From a virus, in IMG/VR virus record IMGVR_UViG_3300046703_000247, positions 1 through 64,000 of that record: a stretch of 64,000 nt of DNA. One strand, given 5' to 3'. The notes under the pieces are model-generated. The model was given only the letters and a program-made list of their open reading frames with translations, did no database searches and was not told the DNA's origin. The translations under genes were made by a program, and so were the position numbers. Position 1 is the stretch's first letter. Every line of letters starts with the position of its first letter. Positions 4,372-49,905 of the stretch are shown here, piece by piece.

Positions 4372-5055
4372 ATGGCAACCGTCCTCGACGTCATTAAGAG
4401 TTCCATGCGCAAGATCGGCGCGCTGGGGCAGGGGGAAACGCCCTCGGTCTCGGAAGCCGCCGATGCCTTGGCAGCGCTCAACCTGCTGCTCGCGAGCTGG
4501 AGCATTGAGCGCATCAACATCTACACCAAGTTGCGCTCGACCCACGCGCTGCAGGCAAACGTCCAGACCTACACGATTGGTGTAGGCGGGGTTTTCAACG
4601 TGGCGCGGCCGGTGATGCTCGACGCGGCCAAGATTCTGCAGTCGAACGGCCTCGAAAGCGAGTTGGCCATTCTGAAGCGCGCCGAGGACTGGAACGCCAT
4701 CCCCGAGAAGAGTGTCGCAGCGGTTCAGCCGCTCTCGCTCTATGACGATTACGCCTACCCGCTCTCGACGCTGCACTTGTGGCCCAAACCCTCTGGGACG
4801 CCCACGCTGGTTCTCGTGAGCTGGCAGCAGTTGACCGGGTTCACTCTCGTAACCGACACCTTCGATCTGCCGCCGGGCTACCAGCTTCCGATTGAGTGCA
4901 GCCTGGCGGTGCTCATCGCGCCCGACTATGGGCGGGAGATTCCGGCAGCAGTAGCTTCAATCGCGGGGAGCTCGAGAAGTACGGTCGCGCAGATGAACGT
5001 GGCGCAGGGGCTGCCGGAGATCCCGAGTGGTCCGCCGCAGCAGCAGGCCGGTTAG
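4372..5055 (+). CDS. P22 gp4-like tail accessory/head completion protein (paralogue A)
   Basis: The 227-residue product starts with the helical pattern of P22 gp4-type proteins: VLDVIKSSMRKIGALGQGE, then ADALAALNLLLASW. In P22, gp4 binds the portal ring, closes the packaged head and receives the tail. The start lies 1 nt after the preceding stop. It is a paralogue of the gene at 5548 (shared LN...SW.IER..IY..LRS block); having two such genes in tandem is unusual. Confidence 0.75.
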   Translation: MATVLDVIKSSMRKIGALGQGETPSVSEAADALAALNLLLASWSIERINIYTKLRSTHALQANVQTYTIGVGGVFNVARPVMLDAAKILQSNGLESELAILKRAEDWNAIPEKSVAAVQPLSLYDDYAYPLSTLHLWPKPSGTPTLVLVSWQQLTGFTLVTDTFDLPPGYQLPIECSLAVLIAPDYGREIPAAVASIAGSSRSTVAQMNVAQGLPEIPSGPPQQQAG

Positions 5056-5170
5056 GTTTCGCCTTTTCTATTCCCCATCCTAAGTTGGGGTAATTCCACT
5101 ACTTACGGGCGAAATCAGGTTTTCATGATTGTGCCGCAAATTGGCCGGGGTTGTCAAGCACAATTCTCAG

Positions 5171-5227
5171 CCGCAGCCACCAGAGGCGAAACCTGCGGTT
5201 TCTCCCCCGGTACCCCTTCTTCCCTTC
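5171..5227 (-). repeat. Palindromic repeat copy 2 (reverse)
   Basis: GAAACC (5188-5193) and GGTTTC (5197-5202) form the inner stem. CCGCAGCC lies on the left and TTCTTCCCTTC on the right, which is the reverse complement of the forward arms. It lies between the gp4 paralogue A stop and the stop of the minus-strand gene that ends at 5226. Confidence 0.85.
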
Positions 5228-5458: not shown

Positions 5459-5516
5459 GAAGGGAAGAAAAAGGTTCGGAAAAAGAAACCTCGGTTTCGT
5501 TTTCCGAGGCTTCGGC
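5459..5516 (+). repeat. Palindromic repeat copy 3 (forward)
   Basis: The inner stem is GAAACC/GGTTTC (5485-5490, 5494-5499) and the outer stem is CGGAAA/TTTCCG-like. The 3' arm GAGGCTTCGGC ends 31 nt before the start codon at 5548. Confidence 0.85.
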
Positions 5517-5547: not shown

Positions 5548-6348
5548 ATGAGCACCCCCCCAGCTTCAGCCTTCCCGCAAACCGCCGCCTGGAACGCCTC
5601 GATCTTCGGCGGCCCCGGCGTAACCGTGGGGTCGGACATCCTCTATCCGGCCCTGCGCCTACTGCGTCTGATCCGCCCCGGTCAAGGCCCCCAACCCGAA
5701 ATCCTCACCGAAGCGCTAGCGGCACTGAACTCGATGATCGACTCGTGGAACATCGAGCGGTTGATGATCTACGCCGTATTGCGCAGCGTGTTCACCCTGG
5801 TTGCAAGCGACGGAGACTACAGCATCGGCCCTTCGGGAGACTGGCTCGTGGATAGCCGACCGTCGCGCGTGGAGAAGGCCGGCCTGATCGACATCAGCAA
5901 TCCGGCGCAGCCGCTCGAGCTGCCCATCGAGGTCCTCACCCTCGACAAGTGGAAGGCGATCACGCTCAAGAGTCTCGCCTCCACCCTCCCGCTGAGCCTC
6001 TACTACGACCAGAACCTGGACGTGGGCTCGGGCATGGTCTACGTCTGGCCGGTCCCGACCGTGGCCAACCAGGTGGCGCTCTACCTGTGGCGCTCCCTGC
6101 TCATGTTCCAAAGCGTGGAAGAGGCTTTCGATGTGCCGCAGGGCTACCTGCGTGCCTTGAAGTACAACCTGGCGGTGGAACTCGCGCCGTCCTATGAGAA
6201 CGCCGTGCTCAGCCCGCGGGTGGTGCAGACAGCGGCGGAAAGCAAAGCCCGGATCAAGAGCCTGAACGCGCCCTCGCTCGTGATGCGCTGCGACTCGGGG
6301 CTGCTCAACAACTCCGGCGGTGGGTCGGACTGGAGGACGGGGCAGTAG
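5548..6348 (+). CDS. P22 gp4-like tail accessory/head completion protein (paralogue B)
   Basis: The 266-residue product has the same core as the gene at 4372 (ILTEALAALNSMIDSWNIER, then IYAVLRSVFTL) but an N-terminal extension of about 45 residues. The C-terminal half keeps the same order of beta-rich and helical segments, including the DVPQGYLRALKYNLAVELAP helix that matches DLPPGYQLPIECSLAVLIAP in paralogue A. The two proteins could form a mixed ring, or one could serve a different joint of the neck. Confidence 0.75.
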   Translation: MSTPPASAFPQTAAWNASIFGGPGVTVGSDILYPALRLLRLIRPGQGPQPEILTEALAALNSMIDSWNIERLMIYAVLRSVFTLVASDGDYSIGPSGDWLVDSRPSRVEKAGLIDISNPAQPLELPIEVLTLDKWKAITLKSLASTLPLSLYYDQNLDVGSGMVYVWPVPTVANQVALYLWRSLLMFQSVEEAFDVPQGYLRALKYNLAVELAPSYENAVLSPRVVQTAAESKARIKSLNAPSLVMRCDSGLLNNSGGGSDWRTGQ

Positions 6349-8957: not shown

Positions 8958-9463
8958 CCAAGATCAACCTCTGCTGCGGGCAGAGCATCCTCCCCGGCTA
9001 CGTGAATGTGGACGCCTGGCCCGGCGCCGGTGTGGACGTGGTACTGGACGCCCGCGACCTCCAATACGACGAGGGGATTGTGGACGAAGTCCTGATGTTC
9101 CACTGCATTGAGCACTTCTCGCTGGATGATGCCTGCGCCCTGCTCCGCAAGGTCTTCCGCTGGCTCAAACCGGGAGGGCATGTGATTGTCGAGGGGCCGG
9201 ATGTGCGGAAGGCCGTCGAGAACTGCAAGACCGGAGACTTCGACGCCATCAAGGGCATCTTCGGTGACATCGCGGAGCTGCGCAAGGGCAAGGAAGGCTA
9301 CCAGCACAAGTGGGGCTGGACCGGGGCGCTGATGCAGCAGGAGTTGGCCTCCGCCGGCTTCAACGTCGGCGAGGTGGAGGCGGGTCTCTCGCACTCTCCG
9401 CACGAATGGCGCGACTACCGAGTGGTCGGATTCAAACCCCAGGCGGTGAAACATGGCCTTTAA
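8954..9463 (+). CDS. SAM-dependent methyltransferase (class I)
   Basis: The 169-residue product starts at GTG 8954, overlapping the previous stop. The SAM-binding region is INLCCGQSILPGYVNVDAWP (motif I with acidic loop), followed by VDEVLMFHCIEHF and VFRWLKPGGHVIVEGPD (post-motif strand with LKPGG). It is of the size seen in small-molecule or sugar methyltransferases found next to glycosyltransferases. It may cap or modify the glycan made by its neighbours. Confidence 0.82.
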   Translation: MTKINLCCGQSILPGYVNVDAWPGAGVDVVLDARDLQYDEGIVDEVLMFHCIEHFSLDDACALLRKVFRWLKPGGHVIVEGPDVRKAVENCKTGDFDAIKGIFGDIAELRKGKEGYQHKWGWTGALMQQELASAGFNVGEVEAGLSHSPHEWRDYRVVGFKPQAVKHGL

Positions 9464-11270
9464 GAAGAACACCGGCAACCAGATCCTCTTCATCCTGACG
9501 AAGTCGGGTGATGGCAGCCACGCCAAAGGCGCGACGGTTTCTCAGGTCACCGCAGGTGGTGCATCCTACGTGCTGGTGAGCAACGGATCGGCCGCTGTTG
9601 CCAGCAAGGGGACGATTTCGCGGGCCGCCAGCCTGGTCAAGTCCGGTGTGTTCCGGCAGTCTCTGAAGGCGGCGGAATGCAACGGCGACATGGCCCTGTA
9701 TATGTTCACGGCCACGAGTTGCGCGCTTCAGCTCATCCCGGTCACCTTCGAGGCGAACACCCCTGGAGAAACCTACTCCCGGGTGCTTCTGAACGGTTCG
9801 CTGGCCTCGGATGCGCACAGCCAGTGTGTGTTGGCCACCTCGGCGGCGCGCCAGGCCGCCAGCCGCGCGCTGGTCATTCAATCCTTAGCCTCCGATGCCC
9901 AGTCGATGGCACAGCAAACCTACAGCCGTGTGATGCTTACGGCCTCTCTGGCGAGCGATGCTCACTCCCAGGCAGTTCTAGCCACCTCCGCTGCGCGGCA
10001 AGTGAACTCGCGGGCGCTGATTGTTCAGTCCTTGGCTTCCGACACCCACAGCCAGTGCGTTCTCGCGGTCTCTGCCGCCCGGCAGGGCAATTCCCGGGCC
10101 TTGCTCATTCAATCCCTAGCCTCCGACGCCGTATCGGCAGCCAGAGCCGTAGTGGTTACCATCGGGGCCTCCGACATCTCAGCGATCGCCTCAACGGTGG
10201 CCTCGGCCGTTCTCGCCGCTGGAGTGGGCGGGGATAATGCCTCTCGGATCTGGGCCTATTCCGACGCCGCCGCCACGAAATCGGCAGCCGAGCAGGCCAA
10301 CGCCCGCGCCCTGGTAATCCAATCTCTCGCCTCAGACGCCGAATCCCAGGCACAACGGAGCTACTCAGCCGTCCAACTCGCCACAAGCGCGGCCCGGCAA
10401 GGCGTTTCCCGGGCTCTCATAGTCCAGAGTCTGGCCTCCGATGCCCACAGCCAGGCGCTCCGCGTCTATTCCGCAGTAGCAGCGGGGGCGGGCGGGGCAA
10501 CGCCATCCGAAGTCTGGGCTTACCCCAATGCGGCAGCCGTGTTGAGCGCTGCGCAGGAAGCCAACTCCCGGGTGCTGGTGGTGCAGTCGGCGGCTTCGGA
10601 CGCCGTCGCGCTGGGCGTCCTTTCGACCAGTGCGGCTCGCCAGGCGGCTGCGCGGGCTCTCGTGATCCAGAGCCTCGCTTCCGATACCCACTCCCAAGCG
10701 GCGCGGACCTACTCGGCGGTGGCGGCCGGGGCCGGAGGCGCAACTCCTTCGGAGGTATGGGCCTATTCAGACGCCGCAGCGGTGCTGAGCGCCGCGCGCA
10801 AAGGCAGTTCCAGGGTGTTGACTGTCCAGTCGCTTGCCAGCGATGCCCAAAGTGTTGCCGCGGCCGCCTACTCCCGGTGCGTGCTGGCGACCAGCGCAGC
10901 CCGGCAAGGAAGTTCCCGCGCCCTAGTGGTTCAATCGCTGGTCTCGGATACCCACTCCGCAGCGATTCAGGGACTATCGCGGGCGCTGAGCATTCAGTCC
11001 CTCGTGAGCGACGTTCACTCCTTGGTGCAGGACGTTCCTACAGCGGATGAGAACGCCGACAAACTGCTCGGCCGCAACATCGCCGGCGCCTCGGATGGCG
11101 GCAGGACCGTCACCGGCGCCCTGCGCACTGTTCGCAACAAGATCGACACCGTAACGGTTCCAGGCTACGCCATCATCTACAGGGAAGACGACCTCACCGA
11201 AGACCACCGGCGCGCTCTGGCCACGGACGCCTCGGCGTTGCCGATCGTAACCTCCGACCCCACCACATAG
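9453..11270 (+). CDS. Heptad-repeat tail fibre with conserved C-terminal domain
   Basis: The 605-residue product has an N-terminal ~105-residue globular part. It is followed by ~420 residues of tandem 28-residue units in which Ser recurs every seventh residue (for example SRALVIQ, SLASDAH, SQAVLAT, SAARQ). This predicts a long oligomeric fibre shaft. The last ~75 residues (ADKLLGRNIAGASDGGRTV, then RNKIDTV and YREDDLTEDHR) form a C-terminal domain also present in the gene at 14837 and familiar from other phage structural proteins. ATG 9453 overlaps the methyltransferase gene end, so fibre and modification genes are co-transcribed. Confidence 0.75.
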   Translation: MAFKKNTGNQILFILTKSGDGSHAKGATVSQVTAGGASYVLVSNGSAAVASKGTISRAASLVKSGVFRQSLKAAECNGDMALYMFTATSCALQLIPVTFEANTPGETYSRVLLNGSLASDAHSQCVLATSAARQAASRALVIQSLASDAQSMAQQTYSRVMLTASLASDAHSQAVLATSAARQVNSRALIVQSLASDTHSQCVLAVSAARQGNSRALLIQSLASDAVSAARAVVVTIGASDISAIASTVASAVLAAGVGGDNASRIWAYSDAAATKSAAEQANARALVIQSLASDAESQAQRSYSAVQLATSAARQGVSRALIVQSLASDAHSQALRVYSAVAAGAGGATPSEVWAYPNAAAVLSAAQEANSRVLVVQSAASDAVALGVLSTSAARQAAARALVIQSLASDTHSQAARTYSAVAAGAGGATPSEVWAYSDAAAVLSAARKGSSRVLTVQSLASDAQSVAAAAYSRCVLATSAARQGSSRALVVQSLVSDTHSAAIQGLSRALSIQSLVSDVHSLVQDVPTADENADKLLGRNIAGASDGGRTVTGALRTVRNKIDTVTVPGYAIIYREDDLTEDHRRALATDASALPIVTSDPTT

Positions 11271-14836: not shown

Positions 14837-15328
14837 ATGAGCCGACTAGACCAGTCCACCGCTTACGAGCGCATGTTCTACATGAACGATGCCGGCCTGA
14901 CCGTCTCGGTTGCGATCAGTAAGGCCGGAGCGGCGTTCGGAGCGGCGGCCGGGGCCGTGACTGAGGTAGCATACGGCTGGTACAAAGTCTCCCTGACTGC
15001 TGGGGATACCAACACCCTCGGGGATTTGGCATATCAGTGCACAGCGCCGGGCGCCGACCCGTGTGCGTTTGCGGATCAGGTGGGCCCCGCGCCCGTCGAC
15101 GAGGCCGCGATCGCCGACAAACTCCTCGGCCGCAACATCGCCGGTGGATCGGATGGGGGGCGGACTGTGACGAGCGCTCTGCGGAGTATGCGCAACAAGG
15201 TGGACACGGTTTCCGTACCAGGCAAGGCCATCTTCTACCAGGAGGACGACATAGTTGAAGATCACCGGCGTGATCTGACCAGCGACGCCCTGGCATTGCC
15301 TATTGTAACCGCCGACCCAACCACATGA
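14837..15328 (+). CDS. Fibre-associated protein sharing the C-terminal domain of the 9453 fibre
   Basis: The 163-residue product has a ~75-residue N-terminal beta domain (NDAGLTVSVAISKAG, then YGWYKVSLTAGDTN). Its C-terminal ~77 residues closely match those of the fibre at 9453 (ADKLLGRNIAGGSDGGRTV, then EDDIVEDHRRDL). It may be a short version of that fibre without the heptad shaft, acting as an adaptor at the same site. A GTAACCCC leader gives only a weak ribosome site. Confidence 0.7.
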   Translation: MSRLDQSTAYERMFYMNDAGLTVSVAISKAGAAFGAAAGAVTEVAYGWYKVSLTAGDTNTLGDLAYQCTAPGADPCAFADQVGPAPVDEAAIADKLLGRNIAGGSDGGRTVTSALRSMRNKVDTVSVPGKAIFYQEDDIVEDHRRDLTSDALALPIVTADPTT

Positions 15329-15651
15329 TGCACCCGTTCTGGCATCCGGTTTTCGGTAGACTCCGTCGAACCTCACTGACACCGGCAGTTCCTCCGCCGC
15401 CCCCGGAGTTGCATCTCGGGTTGATGTTTTGGCACCCGATCCTTGGCAGGCTGCGGGCCTGGTTCGGCATCGGAACGCCCAGCGGCCGCCCGGCGGTGTT
15501 TCTTGGCACTATCAACGGGCAGGCAATCTTCCTCGGTGGGATGGATGGGGCCTGTTCACTTGGTTCTATCAATGCGGTGGGGCTCGACCTGGGAACGATG
15601 GAGGCGGGGGCGGTCCGGTTGGGGAAGATTCCGATCAGACGCGGCTCTTAA
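15325..15651 (+). CDS. Short repetitive beta protein
   Basis: The 108-residue product overlaps the previous stop (ATGATG). It has a duplicated N-terminal motif (FWHPVFGRLRR and FWHPILGRLRA) and a C-terminal ladder of Leu-Gly strands (FLGTINGQAIFLGGMDG, CSLGSINAVGLDLGTMEAG) that suggests a small beta-helix or prism. It ends just before repeat copy 4. The function is unknown; its position suggests fibre association. Confidence 0.55.
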   Translation: MMHPFWHPVFGRLRRTSLTPAVPPPPPELHLGLMFWHPILGRLRAWFGIGTPSGRPAVFLGTINGQAIFLGGMDGACSLGSINAVGLDLGTMEAGAVRLGKIPIRRGS

Positions 15652-15997
15652 CTTCTATGCCGTACCTTTGGGAGACGGAACCCTGCGGTTCCTTCCCCCA
15701 AACCCGCTTCTTCCCTGATCCGAAAGGGAAAGGCTGGAGAAGTTCGAGTGTGGAACTCATGGCCCGATTGTGGAACTCCTGCAAACGAACCACGGAGTTG
15801 GGTAAGGCGGGCCGGGGCCAGAGTTCAATGAGACCGTTTGGCTGCATCCAGTACATCTGTGGTGCCAACGCTCCGTACGGGAAATATGGCGGAATGGCGC
15901 CCATCCTTCCCTTAGCTGGTGCGGCCACCTTCGACACCGGCACAGCCGGCGCGGCGGCCATCCCCAGCAGCATGCGGAGCAGCCCGCGGCGGTTCAT
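15635..15997 (-). CDS. Twin-arginine-leader protein of unknown function
   Basis: The 120-residue product begins MNRRGLLRMLLGMAAAPA, a Tat-type leader (Arg-Arg followed by a hydrophobic stretch and Ala-rich cleavage region). The mature part has PPYFPYGALAPQMYW and a short helix, without a recognised domain. About the last 25 residues (GKKRVWGKEPQGSVSQ onward) are encoded by repeat copy 4, so the original C-terminus was probably replaced. It overlaps the upstream Tat gene by 4 nt. Confidence 0.6.
   Translation of the reverse strand: MNRRGLLRMLLGMAAAPAVPVSKVAAPAKGRMGAIPPYFPYGALAPQMYWMQPNGLIELWPRPALPNSVVRLQEFHNRAMSSTLELLQPFPFGSGKKRVWGKEPQGSVSQRYGIEVKSRV
15661..15718 (-). repeat. Palindromic repeat copy 4 (reverse)
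   Basis: The inner stem is GGAACC/GGTTCC (15678-15683, 15687-15692), a paired A-to-G change relative to the GAAACC/GGTTTC copies. GGGAG and TTCCCCC form the outer stem. It begins 10 nt after the preceding stop and codes the C-terminal residues of the minus-strand gene at 15635. Confidence 0.85.
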
Positions 15998-16281
15998 GAT
16001 GTTCCTTCGGCACGCTGGCTGAACCGCGCGGGTTTGCGAACCTCCAAGGTATCCCCGATTTTCGGCCCTTTGAAGGCAAACTGGTTCTCATAATCGCGGT
16101 TTACCATTTTGGCGAATGCGAGATGCTTTTTAAGAATGGCCAGCATCTCCCTCGTGATTTCCGACTGAGTCAATAGTCGGTTTCCGGGCCACGGCAGCCG
16201 GGCAGCCAGAGTGTTGCGCAGTGGAAACGTGGCGGAGGCCGCAGCCCCCAAGAGAGCGCCGATGAACCCGCGCCGATTCAT
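15994..16281 (-). CDS. Tat leader fused to an N-terminal fragment of a P22-type major capsid protein
   Basis: The 95-residue product begins MNRRGFIGALLGAAASATFP (Tat leader). Residues ~36-90 (LTQSEITREMLAILKKHL, FAKMVNRDYENQFAFKGPK, KIGDTLEVRKPARF) match the N-terminal arm pattern of P22-coat-family capsid proteins, which typically read 'ITREAL..L...L.F...V.R.YD..FA..GAKIGD.L.IR.P.R'. A full capsid protein is several times longer, so this is a fragment, encoded opposite to the virion genes. It could be an exported decoy or a remnant. The match is from memory of the family. Confidence 0.65.
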   Translation of the reverse strand: MNRRGFIGALLGAAASATFPLRNTLAARLPWPGNRLLTQSEITREMLAILKKHLAFAKMVNRDYENQFAFKGPKIGDTLEVRKPARFSQRAEGTS

Positions 16282-16292
16282 GTCCCCATTCT

Positions 16293-16351
16293 AAGGGAAG
16301 AAAAGGTCCTAGGAAAAGAAACCGTAGGTTTCGTTTCCTGGAGCCCCGGCC
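16293..16351 (+). repeat. Palindromic repeat copy 5 (forward)
   Basis: The outer stem AGGAAA/TTTCCT and inner stem GAAACC/GGTTTC surround a GTA loop. It lies between the minus-strand Tat gene start (16281) and the plus-strand start 16371. Confidence 0.85.
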
Positions 16352-16370: not shown

Positions 16371-16664
16371 ATGCCCATGAACCCCAACGTATTGGAACTG
16401 GATCCCAACGACGAGCGCGACTGCTATTGGGATGCTGAGAACGACACCATCGCCACCGGCGGCGCCGCCTGGAGTTCCGTCGCCATCTCGCCCGTGGGAA
16501 CCCCCGCCCTGACCATCGGAGTGCCGGTGAACACCACGACGCGCACCATGGCCAACGTCAAGGGCATCGCCCTGGGGTCTCTGCACGAGCTGATCTGTAA
16601 GGTAACGCTCACCTCGGGGCAGAAGATCGAGCGCTCGCGCTACGTGAAAGGCGTGAACCAGTGA
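16371..16664 (+). CDS. Small Ig-like protein, candidate fibre-tail adaptor
   Basis: The 97-residue product follows a pattern seen in short phage adaptor proteins next to tail genes: an acidic start (LELDPNDERDCYWD), a 'DTIATGGAAWSS' strand pair, and a closing strand with conserved Arg and Glu (VTLTSGQKIERSRYV). An AAAGGG site lies 10 nt upstream of ATG 16371; ATG 16377 is an alternative. It overlaps the next gene by GTGA. The adaptor call is moderate. Confidence 0.6.
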   Translation: MPMNPNVLELDPNDERDCYWDAENDTIATGGAAWSSVAISPVGTPALTIGVPVNTTTRTMANVKGIALGSLHELICKVTLTSGQKIERSRYVKGVNQ

Positions 16665-27091: not shown

Positions 27092-27406
27092 TCAGCCGTG
27101 CCGGTGCCGGCGAGCGCGGCGAGGAATCCATGGCGGTTCAGGGCTTCTTTTCATGGACACTTTCTTTCCCAATACAGGCTGGAAGCAGAAGGACGATTCA
27201 ACCACTTCCGTGATTCGGAACTGTGTCGGGTCCTCAAAGAACGTAACAATGTCCCCAACATTGAGAAATGCCAGACCATTGACCTGGCAAGCAGTTCCCG
27301 GCGGAATACATCCGAGAGACGGGATGCCGGCTGCCGGTGCGGGCTGCGGCAGCAGTGGCGCGGCAATCGCGCCCGCCAGCGCTCCGATGAACCCGCGTCG
27401 ATTCAT
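27092..27406 (-). CDS. Twin-arginine-leader protein, cassette E
   Basis: The 104-residue product starts at ATG 27406 with MNRRGFIGALAGAIAAPLLP, nearly the same leader as the gene at 15994. The mature part has two cysteines in a short loop (GCIPPGTAC) and a beta-like segment (NVGDIVTFFEDPTQFRITEV), ending in a run of Arg and His. It is convergent with the DUF3307 gene and lies next to repeat copy 11. The function is unknown; the leader predicts export of a folded protein. Confidence 0.6.
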   Translation of the reverse strand: MNRRGFIGALAGAIAAPLLPQPAPAAGIPSLGCIPPGTACQVNGLAFLNVGDIVTFFEDPTQFRITEVVESSFCFQPVLGKKVSMKRSPEPPWIPRRARRHRHG

Positions 27407-29054: not shown

Positions 29055-32000
29055 ATGCCCCTTACCGATACCCCCGACAGCTTCGTGCCCGACGTTCCGA
29101 CCCCGGAAGAGGTCGAAGCCGAGTTGCGCGCGGCTGCCAAAGCCCACGGCCTCGACGAGGACCTGGCGCTACGTGTGGCCAACCGGGAAAGCCGGCTCAC
29201 GCAGTCCGCCACCTCCCCTAAAAAGGCGCGCGGAGTCATGCAACTGATGCCCGAGACAGCCAAAACCCTGGGCGTCGATCCAGAGGACTGGCAGCAGAAC
29301 ATCCAGGGTGGGGTGAAGCTCCTCAAGAGTAATCTTGACTACTACAAGGGCGACACCAGGAAAGCGCTCGCGGCTTACAACGCCGGACGCGGACCCGTCG
29401 ACAAGTACAACGGCGTTCCCCCCTACAAGGAAACCCAGGAGTATGTGGATAACATCCTCGGCAAGCCCGTAGCCCCGCCGCCGAGTTTCGAGCCGGATCC
29501 GCCCAGCTTCGAAGCGGACCAGCCGGTCACCATCCCCGGCCTACTTAAACCGGGCAATATCGACCTCACCGCCAGGCCCGTTCATAAGAACCCTGATGGC
29601 ACAACCTCAACAGTGCTTTCCATGAGGTTTGGCGAGGATGGCAAGGAAATACTGGTTCCCAAGGTCAGTGAGGATGGGACCTGGATACTGTCCGACGAAG
29701 AGGCGGTCGACACCTACCACAAAACGGGGAAGCACCTCGGGATCTTCAAGGATGTGCCCAGTGCGAACGCCTATGCGCAGCAACTCCACGAAGATTACGC
29801 CTCCGGAAGAATCAAGTTAAAGACCCCGGGGGCCGCTGACCCGCCCAGCTTCGAAGCGGACCAGCCGACTGCACTCCAGGTTCCCGCCCAGATCCCCAGC
29901 CGAGCCGAACTGGCCACGATGGGCGAGCGCTTGGGCGTCCTACGCATGACGCTCGATACTCAGGCCGAGCAGATGGCCCGCAACCGGGCCGCGCTCGAGG
30001 CCGAGGCCCAGCAGTTCACCCCCAAGACCCCTCCCGAGCAACTGGCGGCCTTCGACCAGAAGGTGAAGTTGCACAACCTGGACCTGGCCGAGTTCCAGAA
30101 CGCGGTCGCCGGGCACGCCAAAGACATCGAGGCGTACAACGCCGGGACGGCGGCGTTCAACGAGAACCTTGGGCGCTATGACCAGGCAATGAAGGTGCCG
30201 CCGGGCACCCAACGGACAGGACTCCCAGGAATGCCGCTCACCCGCATGCCGGTGCAGGTGCAGCCGAGCGGGGTGTTAGGCCTGGCTAAAGAGTCGCTGC
30301 CTTGGAAGATTGCCAACACCCAGGCATTCAAGGCGCTGGGATTGCCCACCACCGCCGACGCCTACGACTATTCGGTGGAGGCTGCGAAGAAACTTGTAGC
30401 GAAGGTGCTGGGTGAACCGAGCGAAACCACCGCCAGGAAGCACCCAGGCGTGGCAGCAACCCTCACATTCGGCGCGCGCGTTGCCCGCCTGTTCCCTGAA
30501 GTGGCCGACTTCATCCTGACGCCGGCGGGGACGGCTACGGCCATCGCGACCGCGGTCGCCCCTCCGGCGGTAGTCGCAGGTGTGGGCGCCGCCTTCAGCA
30601 CAGACATCGCCCTGAAGGCGAATGACGCCATCGAAGTAGCCCGGACCAACCCGACTCCCGAGAATATCGGGGAGGCCGTCAAGCTGTCGGCTATGGCTCT
30701 CTTGCCCTTCCTGCGGCCGGCGGCCGAGTTGGGCCGGAAGGTCGAACGCGGGATCGAACAGCACAACGTCCAGGCGGCCCAACTGGTGGAGCGGGAGCGC
30801 ACCCAGGGGTTAGGAAAAGAATGGGGGCAGGCCATCCTTGGGGAAGAGCCGGTCCGCGTCGAGATTGCGGGGAAGTCCCACACTATTCAGGCGCTGGGCG
30901 GGAATCCTGTTGCCGGTAGTGTCAGACCGCGTCCCACCTACCAAGTGGTGGATGATGCCACCGGCAAAGCCGTCTACTCGGGAGAAGCTCCGGCGGTCCA
31001 AGGTTATCTCGAACAGCAGCAGGCAGTTCGAGTCGGCGGGCTCGTAACATCTGTCGACCAGATCTCAGCGCAACTCGATACTGAGTATTCCAAAGCCGTG
31101 GCCGACCGCGCGGTGGCCCAATCGGTTCGGGACCAGATCAGACAACTTCAGAAATTCTCGCCCGAGCAACTGAAGGCCGAGCAAGCCAAGGGCAAGGTCA
31201 TCCTGGACCACGAGGCCGAACTCAACCAAAAAGGCGTAGCGGGGCTCTCGGAAACAGACCTGGTGGAGGTCCAACAGCACCTCCAGATGGTCGATGATCT
31301 ACTCGCCGGGAAGCCCATCAGCGACAACTTTGCCGAACAGGCCGTCAAGGAAGCCGACGCACATATCTCCGAAATTCAGAAGAAACGGGCACAACTCGGA
31401 GCCGAAGGCACGAAGCTCCCACAAGCGCAGCGGCCCGCCGCCCCCGGGCCCGCCGCTCCCGCCGTGATCGCCAAAGGCACCACCGTCGCCGGCGGGAAGA
31501 TCACGGTCACCGAGGTCAAAGGCGGCAAGGTCGGCTTCGAAAAGACCATGCCCGGCGGCCAGAAGATCCGCGGAACCATGCCGATCGAAGCCTTCCGGTC
31601 CCAGTTTCTTGCGACGTCGCAGCCTGTTCAGCCGCAGCCTACTGCTCAGCCGAAGCCTCGGGAGACGGAACCTACGGTTCCTTCTCCCAAACCCACTTTT
31701 TCCCTTTCGGAAGCCGAGCAGGCGCAGTACGACCAGGTCGCGGAGTTCGCCCGCACCGCCGGAAAGCCGCTCACCGACAAGTTGCTTTGGGAGAAGTTGA
31801 AGATTCCGCGCCACGAGGGCGCAAAGATCCTCGCGGTGATGAAGCAGCAGGGAGCGCTGGACCAGCAGGGGCAGCCGCAAGCTCTTTCGCCGCAGCCTGT
31901 TGTTCAACCGCAGCCTCCAGGGGCGAAACCTGCGGTTTCTCCCCTAGCAACCCCTCTTCCCTTGAACGCCGCCCCGGTCGGCCAAGCCTACCAGGGCGAG

Positions 32001-35000
32001 CTGGCGGGCGACTGGTCGCCCTACTACCGGACCATGGCCGAGGCGCAGGCCGCCGGCGCGAAGAACGTGCAACTCGGGGCGGCTCCGGAGGTATGGAACG
32101 GGCAGAAGTGGGCGGGGGCGGTATCAAATGATGCCAAGCAGCAGGCTCAGCCGCAGCCTCCAGGGGCGAAACCTGCGGTTTCTCCCCTAGCAACCCCTCT
32201 TCCCTCCGAACCCCAAACGCCCGCCCTTGAGGCGCTGAAGCGCCAAATGTCGGACTTCTACAGACGGCGCGTGCGCGTGAACGACCGCACCTTCGTGGGG
32301 GGCGTCTACAATCCCAATCGCTCCGAAGAGGAACGCCAAAGCATTGACGCCCAACTAGAAGAGATTGATTCCGAGGCGCGCAGTGTTCTGTCGAAGGTCC
32401 CACAGAACGACTTGCCCGAGCTAATGAGCGCGGACAACCGGATGCGGGTCCTTGAAGGGGACAATCCCCTAACCCGAAATGACAGAGGAGGCCCTGACTG
32501 GGCAGCGCAGGAATGGCTGAACCGGATTGTCGAGGTGACGCCGGAGCGCGCCGCATTGTCTGCGCCGACAAGCACCCCAGCCCCAGCAGGTAAGCAGATT
32601 GCCGCGCCCCAGCCCCCCGCTGTGCGCGCGCCGGCCCCCGCCGAGACTCCAGCATCCTTCGAGCCGGACACACTGCCCAGGAGCCTGGAACTGGAGCAGA
32701 AGCACGGTCTCTCACCCGCCGAGGCAGCCGTCATCAACCATGCGCTCGACCGCCTGCCCCAGGTTCGCAAGGACTACTCCAGCGCAGCGGAGGCACTTCA
32801 GAAGGAAGCCCTGCGGCTGGCGGCGCCGGCGAACGTCCCGCTCGACAAGATCGCCAACATCAAGTTGCTCAAGCGCATCCTGGCGGACTACCTCGACCCC
32901 GAGCAGTTTAGAGCCGCAGAGGCGCAGAACAAGGAACCCTGGCAGATGACGCGGGAGGAGTTCACCGCCCCGGTGCGTGAGGATCTGGCTCGTTGGAATT
33001 CGTCCTTCGATGAGTTGCGCGCCAAGAGAGGCGGGACTCGCGGACAGACCCCAGCACAGGCTCTCTTTGATGCGAAGCAGAAGCACGAAGAGGGAAGAAA
33101 GCCCTACCTCGAACGTATCGCGGAGACAGAGCAACTTCATGAGCGGAACATTCGCCGTGCGGTTGCAGACGGTAAACCCGTTCCGGCCGCAGTCCTAGCC
33201 GAGTACCCCGATCTGAAGCCCGCGCAAGCACTCGACCCCGACCAAGTCTACCGACGCGCACAGGCCGAGATGGAGCGGCGCCATCTGAAGCAGGGGCTGG
33301 AGCAGTTAATCGCCCTCGACCCCGACAACCCGCGTGAAGACGATCTTGGAGTTGGCAACGATCTTGAGGACGTAACAGGAAACCTGCAAAGCATCGGCTT
33401 CTCCAGACCGGAGATCCAGGCCGTACTGGAAGGCCGCCGCCAGCGGCTCCAGGCGCACCGTGAGCAATCCGCGCGCGCGGCTGAAGCCATCAAGCCGGCG
33501 ATGCCTGGGGGCGTGGTCTATGAAGCGGTGGGCAAGGCTGTGGGCGCTTCGCGCGATAAGAAGGACTCCCAGATGTTCGTGTGGCGCACGGACAGCGAGA
33601 AGCAGGGCTACGAGTTCCTGAACGCGCTGGGCAACAACCTCCAATATGGCCACAAGGATCTGCCGGCCGCCATTCGCGCGGTAGCCGAGCAGAACCCAGA
33701 TTGGACGGATCTATCAAAGACGGCTCTCACTGCGCTCGGAAGGGAAGAAGTGGTCTCGGAGAAGAAACCGCAGGTTGCGTCTCCGGAGTCTCAGCCGAAA
33801 GAAAAGCCCACCGAGTACGACTTCGCCTCCACCCAGGTGAACCTCCCGCCGGAGATCGCCCAGGCCATGCAGGAGTTCAACGCCCAGATCCCAGATGAAG
33901 ACCTGGCGGTAGAGGCGGGAGCCAAATACGGCGGGGAGACAGCCGCCAAGGGCCGCGAAGAACAGTCGCACGTCACCCTGCTCTACGGAATCAAATCCGA
34001 GAACCCGGACGCTGTGCGCAAGTTGCTGGAGAACCAGCCGCCCATCACCCTGAAGCTGGGCAAGACCTCGGTGTTCGCAGGAACCGACAACGGCGATGTG
34101 CTCAAAATCGACGTGGAATCAGAGGATCTGGAGCGGCTCAACAAGCTGTTGAAAGACAACCTGGAGTTCACCGAGACCCACCCAGGCTACAAGCCCCACG
34201 CCACGCTGGCCTACCTCAAGGTGGGGAAGGGCAAGGAGTGGAGCGGCAAGGACGTGCCGGGAGTCACCGGGAAGACTGTAACCCTGGACCGGATTGCATT
34301 CTCGGACAAGAGCGGGGAGCAGACATCTATCCAATTGAAAGGTGAGAAGCCGCAGACTACTCCTAAGCCGCAGCCTCGGGAGACGGAACCAACGGTTCCT
34401 TCTCCCAAGCCCGCTTCTTCCCTTTCGGAAATCCCGAAGCCGAAGGCCTACACCTTTGCCAATCACAAGTTCATGTCGGCGAAGGACAAGCAACTCACCT
34501 TCAAGGCGTGGATCACCTTCCTCCGCAACGGGCTACAACAGAAGGACTTCACCAAGCGGCTGTACGAGCAACTCCACCAGCACATGGGCTTCATCGCCCA
34601 CTACAACATCAACGGGTTCTACGAGGAGTACTTCCTGCACGGCGAGGACACCGAGCGGTTCATTCAGCACTTTGACCTGGCCGACCACCGCTACGGTCCG
34701 GACTCCACCAACGGATTCTGGATGAATAGTGACACCGCCAAGGATTTGAACCGCGCCATGGTGGATGAGGCGGCGCCGTATCTGCCCGGCCTGTTGGAGA
34801 AGGCGGCGGCGGGCCAGAAGGCCGAAGACCTGGCGGAAGCGCAACGGCTCCAGGCGAAGCACGGCGCGCCGGCGCCGGCGCCGGTTGTCACCCATAAACT
34901 TCAGGGCGGAGGGATCGTACAGGAGTTGAAGTCTCCGGAATTGCGTTTTCAGAAGAACGACCACGTTCGCTGGACCGACAAAGACGGAAATGCCAAAGAG

Positions 35001-38000
35001 GGATACGTCAGCCGCGTCGAGGGTCACCTGGTTTTCATCGGGACAGAGTCAGATCAGAAGTTCGGGATGTTCCGCCCGGTGATGGCGAGCAAGGTCGAAC
35101 TGATCGAGGATGAGGGCGACACCCCCACTCCGAAAAGGGATGAAGGGGTCGAGGGGAAGCAACCGCAGGTGGCGTCCCCTCGGGCTCCAGCCAAGACAGA
35201 AGCGCCCGCCAAGACCGGAGATATCGAGCGCCAGATCACCGAAGCTGAATCCGACTTGGCCGCCGCCCGTAAGCTCTACGAGGGCACCGAAGACGGAACA
35301 CTCGACCAGGAAGAAGCCATCCGGGAGATGCACCAGGCGCTGGCCGAGGTGAACCGCCTCCAGGCCGAAGCCGCCAAAGAGAACCCGCTCCTCACCGAAC
35401 AGGCCGAAGGCCGCCGTCAGACCATGCCCCCGATGCCCAAGGGCAAGGAGAGCCACTGGCAGCAGTTGATGGACGACTCCTCCGACCTGGGGGCCACCGC
35501 CGGCGAGGAGTACGTCGTTGACTACGGCCTATGGGTCGAGCGCGGCAAACCGGCAGGCAAGGAACCCGAGAAGCCCAACGCCGAGCGTGAGACCTCCATC
35601 GACCGCGGCGAATACCCCAAGGGTTGGCTGCGCCAGGCGGCCGCCGAGTTCCAGACCAGCTTTGATAAGGAAGTTGCCAAGGGGCTGAAGGAGATTGAGC
35701 AGGAGACCGCCAGAAACGCGGCGGGAGCGGCGGCCGACGCGGCGCGCGAGCTCGAGATCCGCAAGGCTGAGATTCAGGACCTGGCCGCCAAGTTGCGCGA
35801 GCACGCGAGCGGCGATCGCACCGACCTGGCGGAGCGCAAGCGGCTCGTCACCGCCGCCCTAGACCTGAAGACCGGCAAGAAGCTCAACGAGGACACCGAT
35901 GCGCTCTGGGAGCAAGCAATCCGCCCGGCCATCGAGGCGATCCGTCGCGCCGCGGTGGACAAGATTGAGGGCAAACAGATCACCCCTGACACCCCTGTCT
36001 GGGAGATGCGACCAGCGCAATACCTGGAGCACCGGCGCGAACAGGCGTTGCAGATTCCAAAGGGCAGCTTCCTCGAGCGCGAGCCCGGGGAGTGGCGCAC
36101 CGAGTTTCTGGTAACGCTGTCCAAGGAGGAACTTGGGGTATTGCTCCGCCTCAACGGTCTCCCCATAAACGGCACCAAAGCCATGATGGTGCAGCGCTTC
36201 CAGGATGCCCGCGCGTTGCGCAACCAGTTCGAGGGCAAGACGGCGGAGCAGATCGAAGAGGAGATGACTGGCGCGGAGATCGACCGCGCGCTGGAACAAC
36301 TCGGGGCGGGGAAGTACGGCAACAAGCTGACGCGGGCCGGGACAATCCTCGGCACCATTCAAAGCCAGCGTAAGAAGGGCGAGAGCGTCCTGGCTGAATT
36401 CAACTATCAGCGCGCCATCTATCGGGCAGTGGGGAAAGGCCAGCCGGTCCCCGAGGAGATCCAGAAGAAGTACGGCGCCTTCCAGACAATCGAGGATGTT
36501 GCCGCCGCAATTCCAGAAGAGGGGACCGCGGAACCAGACAAGAAAATCAGGATTGGCGACCGGGTCACATGGAAGGGATTCGACAAGGTTGTACGGGTCG
36601 GCACGGTCAGCCACATTCGCCACCACATAGAGAACGGCCGGGAGCGCAATACGCTGGAGATTGACGGCGACGACCATGGCCGCTACTTCCCTGACGACGT
36701 CGACGTCACGAAAGTAGCCGCCGAAACCAGGGATGAAGGGGGCGCGGGGGAAGCAACCGCAGGGTTGCGTCCCCAGCAGGCTCCGGCAGAAACACCCGCC
36801 GAACCGACGGAATACGCCTTGTCGGGCGACACCTACCGCTTCAAGAACATCATCCGGGCCCAACTGCAAGGCAAGTGGAACGGCAAAGAAAAGGTGTGGA
36901 TTATCCCCGCCAGCCAGGTGGAGGCAGCCCGGAAACTCTCAAAGAAGATCGAGGTGAAGCCCTTCGGGCAGGTGAAGACAGCCCCCGCCCAGCCGCCCAT
37001 GGACGAGCAGACCGCCTCGGCCGTCATCCAGGATCTGGTCAAGACCATCTCCGAAGCCCAGGAAGAGGTGCACTTCGCGCAGAACGACAAGGACACCGAC
37101 AAAGGCGCAAGCACTCAGGCAAACGAGGCCAAACTGGCTACGGCCGTCAAGGATCTGCGGAGCGTGGTAACGGAAGCCAAGAAGTACTTGGACTTTCCAA
37201 ACGCACCGGAGAGCGATAGGGAAGCTTTGCGGACTCAACTCTACCGCGCCGAGCAAAACCTCAGAGGATATGAGCGCCCCGGCCCCTCCATCAACCAGAC
37301 CATCGAAGCCGAGAAGTACGTTGAGAAACTGACGGGTCCCGAGCAGACCTACGCGGCGAAGTACAAGGACTACTGGCTGGGAAAGATCGCCGAAGAGCCT
37401 CCCTACGTCGGCGTCCACATCAACCCGCTGCGCGCTGAAGGCATCCGGACACATCTAAAACACGTCCTCGGAAAACGGGTAGAGGTTACCGGCGGGCCGG
37501 AAGCTACGAAGCCCGCGACCGAGACGCGCGTCCCCAAGTGGGGCAACCTCACAGAATTGGAAGCTGAGCTGCTCCGCGGCCTCAATAGACCACAGCCTAT
37601 TGGTGATCTCTTTGATTCGATCGGTCAGCATTGGCCTGATTCCGAGAAAATCAAGGTGCTTCATGCACTCGACAGCCACGGTCTGGTAAAAGCCATCCAC
37701 GGCGGCGGGTACGAGCGCACCGAGGCGGGCACCGTCGCAATCGGCAAAGGACCGGCGGAAGCGTATCTTCCGAAGGGGACCGCGCCGGCGCCTGCACCGA
37801 AGGGCAGCTTCAAATACGAGTTCCAGGTGCACGGCGAAGGCGGCAAGTGGAGCGACAACGCCCTGCGCTTTGCCACCGAGAAGGAAGCCCAAGCAGCCGG
37901 AGATGAGCACCTTACGCGCTGGACCATGGCCGATGCGGTCCGGGTGGTGCCGTCCGAGGATGCGCCTAACTACCGCTGGGACGACGACCAGTACAAATCC

Positions 38001-41000
38001 GTCCGGCTGTCCGGGAAGGAAGAGGGGGTGCAGGGGGAGAAACCGGAGGTTTCGCCTCCTGAAGCGCCGGCCCCAACAGTTGAGGAAGCCCTGGCTATCA
38101 TCGAGAGAAAAGGCTCAGCCCATTGGGAAGACACTACCATCAAGGTGGTTCCACACCCATCGGTTACCGGGATGGTCGACACCGATGGAACCAGCTTCTC
38201 AGTAGAAGTGACCCGGAATGGGGAGCGCAACATCATCGAAGCCGCCCCTCTGTCCCTGGAAGATGCCCAGAAAAAAGCTGCCCGGATGCTGGTGGAACGC
38301 GCAAAACTTCCGCCACTCGGCAAAAAACAGAGCATAATGGAGGCGGAGCAACCCAATGCCCCAGGTGGAATACAGCAGCCCGTTCGTTCAACTGGTGCTC
38401 GACCAGTGGAAGAACAACTTCCCGAAGGAAGCCGAGCGCCTGGAGAAGCAGGGAACGCTCCTCAAGTGGGCCGAGTACGCGACCAAGCGGGCGGGCGCGG
38501 TACACGAGCAGGCGCTGGCAAACGGAGCGAGCTACACCCAGGCGGAGGATCTGTCCCTACCCGAGTGGGGCCAGCCACCGACGTTGAACGATCCCTCCCT
38601 CCCCGTTCCCGAGACGTAGCCAACAACCGCCACGAGCACGACTTCCGCATTCCGGACCGGCGTGTCATTTCCGGATCCCCTGAAACCCGGGCGAAAGCCA
38701 ACCTCGCAGCCATCCGCCTGTTGCGCGAAATCCAGCAAGACAACCGCGCCGCCACGGTCGAGGAGCAGGAGACCCTGGCGCGGTACGTCGGATGGGGCGC
38801 CGTTCCGCAGTTGTTCGCCGGCAACACCTCAGAGTGGAAGGCGCTCCAGAACGACCTGCGCAAGTCGTTGAGCGAAGAGGAGTACTCTCTCGCCCAGAAT
38901 TCCACCAAGAACGCCCACTACACGGGAGATGAGGTGGTGGATGCCATGTGGGCCACGCTCGAGCGGATGGGCGCCACGCCGGGCATGAACTGGCTGGAGC
39001 CCGCGGTGGGAGTCGGGAACTTCTTCGGCCGGCAGCCGGAGGCCTTGCTCGCGGGTTCGCGACGAATCGGAATCGACAAGGATTCGCTTTCCGCACAGAT
39101 TGCCACGCTGCTCTACCCGGACTCGGGCATCCAGAACCAGCCCTTCGAGGAAGCCGAACTCCCCAAGGACTACTTCGACGCCGCCATCTCAAACGTGCCC
39201 TTCGCCGATGTTAAGGTGCACGACCCTGAATTCCGCAACAAAATATACCTGAGATCGAGCGTTCACAACTACTTCTTTGCAAAGACTTTGGGCAATGTGA
39301 AGCCGGGCGGCATCGTGGCCTTCATCACTTCTCACTACACCATGGACGCCTACGGCCAAGAGGCCAGGGCTTTCCGGAAGTGGATCGCTTCACAGGCCGA
39401 TTTCCTCGGCGCCGTGCGGCTGCCCTCGAACGCCTTCATGCAGAGTTCGGGCACCCACGTCATCACCGACATCGTCTTCCTACAGAAGCGACTGCCCAAC
39501 GCTGCGCCCGCCGGCGAGGATTGGGTGGAGACGGTGAACAAGACGCTCTCCGGGCAGTGGGGCGTGTATCCCGTAACCACCAACGCCTACTACAAGCGGC
39601 ATCCCGAACACCTTCTGGGAGAGGAGAAGCTGAAACGCGGCCAGTTCTCAGACCATGATTACTTTGTGGAAGGGGAACTGACGCCGGCCGCCCTGAAGAA
39701 AGCCCTCTCCAAGATCCCCGGCCAGTTCCAGCAATGGCAGACAGGGGCGACGGCCCCCCGGCGGATCGCCCTGCGGGAGATTCGCGCAGAATCCGACAAG
39801 GCCAAGCTCGGAGCCCTCTTCTTTGATGACAAGGGCGACCTGTTCCGCAAGACCAGCAAGGGATCCGCTGAGCCGATTCCCGTGAGTGCGGATGCCAAGC
39901 AGAAGATCAAGGGTCAGTTGGAATTGCGCAACGCCTACGCGGAGCTGCTCGAGCTCGAGCGCAAGGATGCCCCCGAGGCGGCGCTCGATAGCGCCCGCAA
40001 GCGGCTCAACCGGATGTACGACAAGTACGTCGCCGAGCACGGCCCCTTATCGAGCCGAAGCAACACGGAGCTGCTCAAGGGAGATCCGGACGCCCCGCAC
40101 GTCGTCAGCCTGGAGCGCAAGTGGGACCCCAAGACGAAGACCGCCGAGAAGTCCCCGATTTTCAAGCGCCGCATGCTCCAGCCGCCCAAGGCCCTGGAAC
40201 ACACCGCCGACGCCAAAGATGCTCTTTACGTCTCCCTGAATCAGACCGGGCGGATTGACTTCGAGCGCATGGAGAAGTTAACCGGCAAGGGAAGCACCCA
40301 ACTCCAGAGCGAGTTGAAGGGCATCATCTACCAGGACCCGACCAGCCGCGAGTGGGAGATGGCCGACGAGTATCTCTCCGGAGCGGTGCGCACGAAGTTG
40401 CGCCAAGCCCAGGCCGTGGCCAAATTGGAGCCCGAGTTTGAGGAGAACGTCAAGGCGCTCGAACAGGTGCAGCCCGACGACATTCCGCCGGCACAGATCA
40501 GGGTCGCACTGGGCGCAACCTGGGTTCCGATCGATATCTACACCGAGTTTGCAACGCACATTCTGAACAGCTCGACCGACACCCCGGTCCGCTACGTGGC
40601 GAACCACTGGCACGTGGATGAGCCCTACTACAGTTCCGCCCGGTCCAAGAGCCAGTGGGACACCGGCCGCATGAATGCCCACCAGATCCTGGAAGGCTCC
40701 CTCAACATGACGCGCCTCAAGGTCCACGACTGGGACAGCGATAAGAAGCGGGATGTTATCAACCAGCCGGAAACGGCCGCGGCGCAGGCCAAGCAGCAGG
40801 AGTTGCAGACCTACTTCGAAAGATGGCTTCTATCTACCGAGGCCGCGCGCACGGACCAGATGGTGCGCCTCTACAACGATGCGAAAAACGACCTCCGCCT
40901 CCCGACCTTTGACGGCTCCCACCTGACCCTTCCGGAAATCGTTCGGGATCCGCAGATTGTGACGGGCGGCGATCTGGCACCCCACCAGAAGAATGCCGTT

Positions 41001-48234: not shown

Positions 48235-48660
48235 ATGAACCGCCGAGGGTTCCTCTTCACAGCCTTGGGAGCACCCGCTGTTGTTGTTGGCGCGACCGCG
48301 CCCACCACGCGCTTACAACCTCCCGGCCTGCCTGTAGATCCTCAGTTTGATTTTGTCGACGGGGCACATTACTGTGCTGGGCTGTACTACGGCCGCCGGG
48401 TTGCCTTCGCTTCGCCAAATTATCCCAACCGCCTCTGGTTTTCCCGTGCCGATCCCCCGCGCCGCTTTCACGACCCCTACGGTATTGGCGACTGGGTCGA
48501 CGTCGGCGATTCATGGGACCGGATCGTTTCAGTCTATGTTTGGCACGCGGACCTGATTATTCGCAAGCTCAACAGTGAATGGCAGTTCTGCGGCGACCTA
48601 GACTGGGGCATTTTCTATTTTCTGGGTGATCCCCAACGGAGAGGAGTTCTGAGAGTATGA
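48235..48660 (+). CDS. Tat-leader protein with a gp10-blade-like body
   Basis: The 141-residue product begins MNRRGFLFTALGAPAVVVGA. The body (YYGRRVAFASPNYPNRLWFS, WVDVGDSWDRIVSVYVWHAD) has the layout of one blade of the gp10-like stabilisation protein at 17285 (GYFIAAPPDDKRFRISSLYDG, then NISSILADHGDLWLLG). I infer that it may be a virion-protein fragment carrying an export leader, parallel to the capsid fragment at 15994. It overlaps the next gene by ATGA. Confidence 0.6.
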   Translation: MNRRGFLFTALGAPAVVVGATAPTTRLQPPGLPVDPQFDFVDGAHYCAGLYYGRRVAFASPNYPNRLWFSRADPPRRFHDPYGIGDWVDVGDSWDRIVSVYVWHADLIIRKLNSEWQFCGDLDWGIFYFLGDPQRRGVLRV

Positions 48661-49007
48661 ACCGCCGCGGCTTCCTGGCTATGCTGGCTGGCGCGGTGCT
48701 CGACCCCGAGCGCTTGCTCTGGGTGCCGGGGAAGAAGCTCATCTCTATTCCGGCAGAATCCGCGCCCTGGCCTTGGCGGCACGGACCGTTTCTCGTAACC
48801 GCGCACATGGAAGGTTCCAGCGACGTGGCCGCCATTATGGAACGCCTACTCAATCACCGTTGGACGATGGACCCCGTGTGGCGACAGCACGCGCAAGACA
48901 TGATTGACCGCGACATGCAACGGATTCTTCTGGGCGAGGTGCAGCAGACCATCGGGTTCTTCCGCACTTCCGAGAAACCTACTCCTTCGCTGCAGATGTC
49001 GGCCTGA
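48657..49007 (+). CDS. Tat-leader protein of a phage-associated family
   Basis: The 116-residue product begins MNRRGFLAMLAGAVLDPERL and continues LWVPGKKLISIP. I associate this 'DPERLLWVPGKKLISIP' string with short phage proteins, but not with a function. The body is helical (LNHRWTMDPVWRQHAQDMID). It is translationally coupled to the gene before it and ends tail to tail, with a 29-nt overlap, with the minus-strand gene at 48979. Confidence 0.6.
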   Translation: MNRRGFLAMLAGAVLDPERLLWVPGKKLISIPAESAPWPWRHGPFLVTAHMEGSSDVAAIMERLLNHRWTMDPVWRQHAQDMIDRDMQRILLGEVQQTIGFFRTSEKPTPSLQMSA

Positions 49008-49845: not shown

Positions 49846-49905
49846 GGAAGGGAAGAAAAGGTTCAAGGAAAAGAAACCGCAGGTTTCGTGTCCTTGGGCT
49901 CCAGC
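49846..49905 (+). repeat. Palindromic repeat copy 22 (forward)
   Basis: The inner stem is GAAACC/GGTTTC and the outer CAAGGA/TCCTTG (perfect). It lies between divergent genes and ends 15 nt before ATG 49921. Confidence 0.85.

Follow-up and report, generated by a model that had tools for sequence, protein, structure and literature searches.

The satellite capsid-remodelling proteins P4 Sid and PICI Cpm interfere with the capsid assembly of their helpers, and they are not known to be coat fragments with export leaders. In P22, the N-arm, the I-domain, the E-loop/spine and C-terminal stretches of the coat include assembly contacts. The nearest analogue of the action that we propose is Tab, a prophage-encoded blocker of tail assembly in other phages; compared by description only, it differs in acting on tails, and its abstract mentions neither a Tat leader nor a capsid origin (PMC10884400). 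The major capsid protein (MCP) is also the direct trigger of CapRel-SJ46, which makes it a ligand worth mimicking, but CapRel is a host sensor and the passages on it describe no phage MCP-fragment inhibitor (PMC9712102). A search of the open-access PMC literature returned no description of Tat-led capsid fragments. The gene studied here, ORF1, very probably belongs to a group of short phage genes, hereafter the class, that join a Tat-like leader to one or more pieces of the MCP.

ORF1 occupies positions 15994-16281 on the minus strand of the window (the whole stretch of 64,000 nucleotides that was analysed, part of an 83,233-base IMG/VR record). The coordinates, the 95 codons and the strand given in the original prediction are exact: the gene starts with ATG and encodes 95 aa, and none of the five other frames of this interval is open throughout. 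The flanking genes, 15325-15651 and 16371-16664, both lie on the plus strand, so its description as antisense is right locally. The protein consists of a leader of residues 1-27 (MNRRGFIGALLGAAASATFPLRNTLAA; 16201-16281, minus strand), six further residues, and then a body beginning with GNRLLTQSEITREMLAILKKHLAFAKMVNRDYENQFAFKGPKIGDTLEVRKPARF, of which residues 34-90 (16012-16182, minus strand) correspond to the N-arm of P22-type coat proteins, at coat positions ~2-59. Near the N terminus a twin-arginine motif is followed by a hydrophobic stretch (MNRRGFIGALLGAAASATF). Because the Pfam TAT_signal model scores only 14.4 bits on ORF1, under its cut-off of 22.7, the label 'Tat' rests on the RRxF motif and the hydrophobic stretch. 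The leaders of the class share with Tat-exported proteins the MNRRGF(L) twin-arginine motif and a hydrophobic stretch, but they too score under the curated cut-off, their cargo is a structural virion fragment rather than an enzyme, and their export is putative.

The homology of the body to coat proteins is well supported. Among 38,880 families, ORF1 residues 33-90 match positions 2-56 of 385 of phrog_283 ('major head protein') with E=5.4e-6, and a dedicated profile built from 82 P22-type coats gives E ~1e-22. With tblastn, 98 of 50,697 phage records match at E<=10; the 40 listed among these fall on genes annotated as coat, major capsid or major head proteins, or as 'hypothetical protein' at that place, and the highest identity among the matches listed is 54%. 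A Tat-like leader followed by a P22-type coat N-arm, as had been proposed, is thus what we find, and residues 36-90 match coat proteins in phrog_283, the coat profile and tblastn alike. The expected match to PF11651 itself did not materialise at E<=1, and a PDB sequence search with ORF1 gave 0 matches. The phage's own coat is intact (404 aa, record 80926-82140, plus strand), is a full member of PF11651 (E=2.3e-41) and is 45-50% identical to ORF1 over their common part, which provides the comparison with the real capsid gene that had been suggested. ORF1 therefore differs from P22-type coats (PF11651/phrog_283), to whose N-arm its residues 34-90 are homologous, in covering ~15% of the coat, in starting with a Tat-like leader and in coexisting with an intact coat gene elsewhere in the record. 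At 95 aa it is not a full-length (~400 aa) capsid-forming protein, and a Tat-like leader, a partial MCP body and the presence of an intact MCP gene are the features by which we define the class, all three of which ORF1 shows.

ORF1 is not the only leader gene of this phage: the original prediction had missed ORF2, which has an MNRRG leader, and three further leader ORFs in the record. ORF2 (15635-15997, minus strand, 120 aa, own leader MNRRGLLRMLLG) is joined to ORF1 by an ATGA overlap. The third (27092-27406, minus strand, 104 aa) matches a coat I-domain profile that was built from other Tat ORFs of the class (E=8e-4). The fourth (48235-48660, plus strand, 141 aa) and the fifth (48657-49007, plus strand, 116 aa, leader LDPERLLWVPGKKLISIP) also share an ATGA overlap, and their bodies have no recognised source. 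For the ORF2 body the best lead is a head-tail adaptor-like profile at a non-significant E of ~0.1; the reading as an adaptor piece involves only 12-16 residues with pairwise E-values of 0.018 and 0.078, and we keep it as a lead only. We found no relatives of ORF2. In IMG/VR no close relatives of ORF1 were found, only two direct relatives with little in common beyond the leader, and a strict MNRR...ITRE pattern at the DNA level retrieved one stretch, inside a 390-aa ORF without such a leader.

We found nothing promoter-like in the vicinity of ORF1; directly upstream of it, a terminator-like hairpin is present on the same strand. Two copies of a ~57-bp palindromic element border the cassette, one at the 3' end of the ORF2/ORF1 pair, overlapping the last codons of ORF2 (15660-15716, minus strand), the other inverted and directly upstream of ORF1 (16294-16350, plus strand). 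The element occurs at 31 sites on both strands of the 83-kb record (window 732-60137 and record 65215-79621; other copies are, for example, 31649-31705 and 49849-49905) and was absent from 398 other loci (4.0 Mb). In the 24 of the 31 copies that were aligned for covariation, 97.9% of stem pairs are standard and 49 cells show two-sided changes, compared with a mean of 14.1 after shuffling. A single 5786-aa ORF (29055-46415) contains eight in-frame copies, situated in its proline/lysine/glutamate-rich stretches, which is reminiscent of the Rickettsia palindromic elements. Two more (5170-5226 and 5461-5516) sit between tandem head-tail adaptor-like paralogues (4372-5055 and 5548-6348, both phrog_12985). 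Elsewhere in the window, the 163-aa ORF at 14837-15328 includes a stretch of 71 residues with 77% identity to the C-terminal end of an upstream ORF of 605 aa (9453-11270), which we read as a recent partial duplication.

Many leaders of the class carry, after the hydrophobic part, a conserved DPERLLWVPGxKTIFIP. Defined as matching a leader profile at E<=1e-3 and reaching profile position 30 or beyond, this DPERLLWVPG family comprises 72 distinct ORFs among the 20,529 ORFs of 45-300 aa in all the loci gathered; ORF1 lies outside it, and the ORF at 48657-49007 inside. Class members are found on many contigs; two of these belong to named bacterial MAGs, and in both leader-bearing MAGs a contig of the assembly has a long coat match. 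In the MAG of Solibacteraceae, contig C35 carries the leader ORF as well as the coat. When the leader profile was run on 101 genomes of the taxonomic class to which this MAG belongs, four matched, namely this MAG with 1.6e-13 and three others no better than 2e-4, so that the leader looks like a trait of phages and not of their hosts.

How often such leaders are followed by capsid pieces was estimated in several samples. In the first, an IMG/VR scan for DNA coding MNRRGFxG that gave at least 118 stretches, the 82-coat profile detected coat pieces at E<0.01 in 7 of 86 distinct Tat-leader bodies, ORF1 included, covering coat positions 3-59, 85-123, 364-392, 344-387, 3-24 together with 240-260, and twice 42-58. 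Among the 71 of 72 leader-family ORFs with a body of at least 20 aa, 21 matched at E<0.01, of which 19 also passed E<1e-3, and after shuffling none of 710 bodies matched. One of the searches for relatives used a query that included a piece of coat N-arm, which could bias it towards members of that kind. In a body-blind sample, obtained with the leader alone (60 loci, 51 distinct bodies), capsid pieces were present in 23 of 51 bodies, namely 14 with P22-type coat at E<0.01 and nine of a second group, counted with a profile trained on such bodies; homologous Tat-capsid fusions, which it had been suggested to look for in other phages, do therefore exist. The other 28 bodies of this sample have no recognised source, and no PHROG match better than 0.021 was obtained for the remaining leader-family bodies (given for 43 of 47). 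The parts of the coat carried by the class are the N-arm, the I-domain, the E-loop/spine and C-terminal stretches, sometimes in changed order.

Conversely, run over all 20,529 ORFs, the coat profile gave 47 matches at E<0.01, of which 20 belong to the leader family, nine have another Tat-like leader, six have one by eye (the leader being seen from an internal start, or the hydrophobicity filter having failed) and 12 have none. The leader is thus not obligatory. Small ORFs without it that match the C-terminal coat include L384:2981-3277 (coat 360-385), L375:14927-15439 on the minus strand (338-394) and L295:308-577 (367-392), and all three loci also hold a leader ORF.

Four capsid lineages contribute pieces to the class. 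The second group has the signature LFERDDxFY...EVISSRxMRIPL and was matched in 14 of the 16 records searched; all eight matching records of at least 30 kb contain, on the opposite strand, an ORF of 418-434 aa with the same N-terminus, and the three of these that were checked are all phrog_14242 major head proteins (E 1e-7 to 1e-9). It is on these long ORFs and on phrog_14242 that the MCP identity of the group rests. In the two other lineages, both from the first sample, the body resembles a long ORF of the same phage: L039 shares 60% identity over 38 aa with a 333-aa phrog_9953 major head protein, and L010 shares 67% over 27 aa with a 455-aa ORF that matches head protease/major head families.

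The pieces appear to be specific to the MCP. Eleven family profiles were built alike, one for the coat and ten for other families conserved around P22-type coats (among them portal-like, terminase-like, scaffold-like and adaptor-like ones, named by length and look). In 157 bodies, that is two overlapping lists of 71 and 86 with duplicates kept, the coat profile matched 30 at E<0.01 and the other ten matched none. In 50 coat-bearing records not picked for a leader, drawn from 80 coat loci, there was exactly one coat match at E<=0.1 in every case, and a clear leader ORF near the coat was seen once in the 80 loci. By comparison, 26 of 50 leader-selected records had a long coat match, and six of those 26 had secondary partial matches (G124 twice, G135, G132, G125, G111 and G119; the one in G125 is a non-Tat ORF), the split coats of G102 and G119 being left out of the count. 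In a first control, 10 of 3452 'non-Tat' ORFs matched the coat profile, and five of these ten proved to be Tat-leader ORFs missed by the filter. A BLAST self-test matched 5 of 89 Tat ORFs against 8 of 3246 controls. Two of the five, L160 and L348, belong to a single phage (G019), and overlapping ends or duplicated stretches account for several of the control matches; because of these duplicates and overlaps we rely on the profiles. Overall, the class spans several MCP lineages and, in the family tested, is MCP-specific as far as sources can be recognised; its members occur in tandem arrays, and close relatives show protein-level conservation of the bodies.

The idea that bodies may come from any virion gene was prompted by MNRRGF ORFs without the WVPG leader (L021, L040, L061, L065) and by L027, but neither the WVPG family nor the ten-family control supported it. 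These ORFs (L027:3296; L040, G007:2736-3008, minus strand; L061, G008:4345-4686; L021, G006:12674-12913, minus strand; L065, G009:39115-39483, minus strand) have bodies that match LamG, tail-fibre, tailspike or scaffold-like proteins, in part weakly; they could be further exported proteins, or examples of this design with a body from outside the capsid. A 204-aa phage ORF with an MNRRGFLG leader (L035:997, L045:4335, L074:8320, L110:853) is presumably a Tat-led endolysin, as one member of its set matches endolysin/chitinase families.

As to function, the best overall explanation, which we hold tentatively, is that the Tat-led MCP fragments act as membrane-targeted capsid mimics. The leader would direct the products to the inner membrane or the periplasm, where they would act; should Tat refuse them, they would instead act from the cytoplasmic side of the membrane. 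The most likely mechanism, advanced with somewhat more reserve, is a withdrawal of building blocks: coat or scaffold subunits that other phages produce in the same cell would be bound by the pieces and lost to assembly, and the phage's own coat would escape thanks to sequence divergence. We favour interference with other phages over self-help because the pieces are often closer to foreign coats than to their own: the own coat ranks 76 of 103 by closeness to ORF1 and 52 of 99 for the L290 ORF at 5631, ranks to be read as +/-1 since the list of coats included the Tat ORF L336, and the 100% match of L290 being to itself. The interference factor against related phages that the original prediction had put forward is compatible with these data, and mildly favoured by the rank found for ORF1. 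In other cases the own coat comes first or second, as for the L292 ORF at 2520 (1 of 95), L254 (2 of 24) and also L032, which fits self-directed roles as well. A gene-conversion cassette was considered and rejected, as the fragments are only ~30-65% identical to their own coat at the protein level. Two points weigh on the proposed mechanism: Tat may accept short, unfolded pieces of coat only poorly, and a product in the periplasm would not meet an assembly process that takes place in the cytoplasm, which counts against assembly interference. For an I-domain member (L372), AlphaFold2 gave a mean pLDDT of 44.8, so that a folded body is not supported.

The main rival of assembly interference is that the pieces serve as decoys for host immunity, binding capsid sensors of the CapRel type without triggering them or dragging them to the membrane. 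Such a role would take advantage of the MCP being a known direct trigger of CapRel-SJ46 (PMC9712102), and the restriction of the class to MCPs, across several lineages, is in line with it. A decoy should however resemble the coat of its own phage, which is often not the closest one, and a leader that exports the piece would take it away from sensors located in the cytoplasm; we regard this reading as unlikely.

Somewhat less likely still would be a helper of the phage's own morphogenesis, in which membrane-bound pieces tether or nucleate its own procapsids, or regulate coat levels. The genomic context offers some encouragement, in that the leader ORF lies on the strand of the coat in 16 of the 26 P22-type records with a coat, and that a same-strand ORF ends at most 25 nt upstream of the leader ORF in 51 of 72 cases, with an overlap of a few bases in 20 of 72. 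Yet the pieces do not track their own coat closely, and the leader ORF is opposite to the coat in the other 10 of 26 records and in 8 of 8 of the second lineage. It follows from these same counts that antisense placement is common in the class and not special to the window.

It is also conceivable, if improbable, that a mobile leader captures DNA of the MCP gene by illegitimate recombination, this DNA being highly transcribed or recombinogenic, and that only the leader or some generic export matters. Pieces may indeed come from anywhere in the coat, they occur in swapped order within a single ORF in L290, L297 and L273, many bodies have no recognised source, and repeats flank the cassette in the record studied here (G000). 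In the members that carry the N-arm, the leader is joined near the first coat residues. Arrays or pairs of leader ORFs exist in L290, L292, L295, L297, L277 and the window, and the array on a contig of the Acidobacteria bacterium P6-9 MAG (L337) counts against capture: its three overlapping leader ORFs (1493-1828, 1825-2199 and 2192-2530) carry coat positions 3-56, 240-301 and 330-396, in this order. The strict MCP specificity and the recurrence in unrelated lineages also speak against it, and purifying selection on the bodies already weakens it. Between L372 and L373, the body has accumulated 22 synonymous and 7 non-synonymous changes (dN/dS 0.08), and the ratio is 0.18 for L349/L354; ratios of 0.19-0.34 come from pairs further apart, in which synonymous sites are close to saturation, and L364/L367 is fully saturated. 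These ratios indicate that the leader ORFs in the compared pairs are genes and not debris. For the same reasons (recurrent architecture in unrelated phages, MCP-specific bodies, successive coat segments in tandem and purifying selection), the earlier suggestion of a recombination remnant kept for its leader is disfavoured. Finally, short ORFs, metagenome contigs and a low-scoring Tat motif could evoke chance, composition or faulty assembly, an extremely improbable origin that is already refuted for the class by the silence of the shuffled bodies, by copies that are diverged and not identical, and by the many independent contigs, including those in the two named MAGs.

Returning to membrane-targeted capsid mimicry, the picture that emerges, and that we consider possible while stopping short of calling it probable, is that phages of several capsid lineages maintain a dedicated and diversifying system of Tat-targeted capsid fragments, in which the coat is sometimes split into successive segments with a leader on each. 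Its targets in trans would be capsid subunits or capsid sensors, and it would amount to a conflict system made from MCP pieces. The reading makes a prediction that applies to any phage: a short leader-bearing ORF matching part of a major capsid protein. If it is true, the class would provide natural inhibitors of capsid assembly with defined interfaces, and would account for a set of small Tat-like proteins of phages to which no function is at present assigned. If the class does act in trans on capsids, it would represent a novel type of conflict module, between phages or between phage and host, that sequence alone suffices to recognise, and would add an extra layer to superinfection exclusion and to capsid-sensing immunity.
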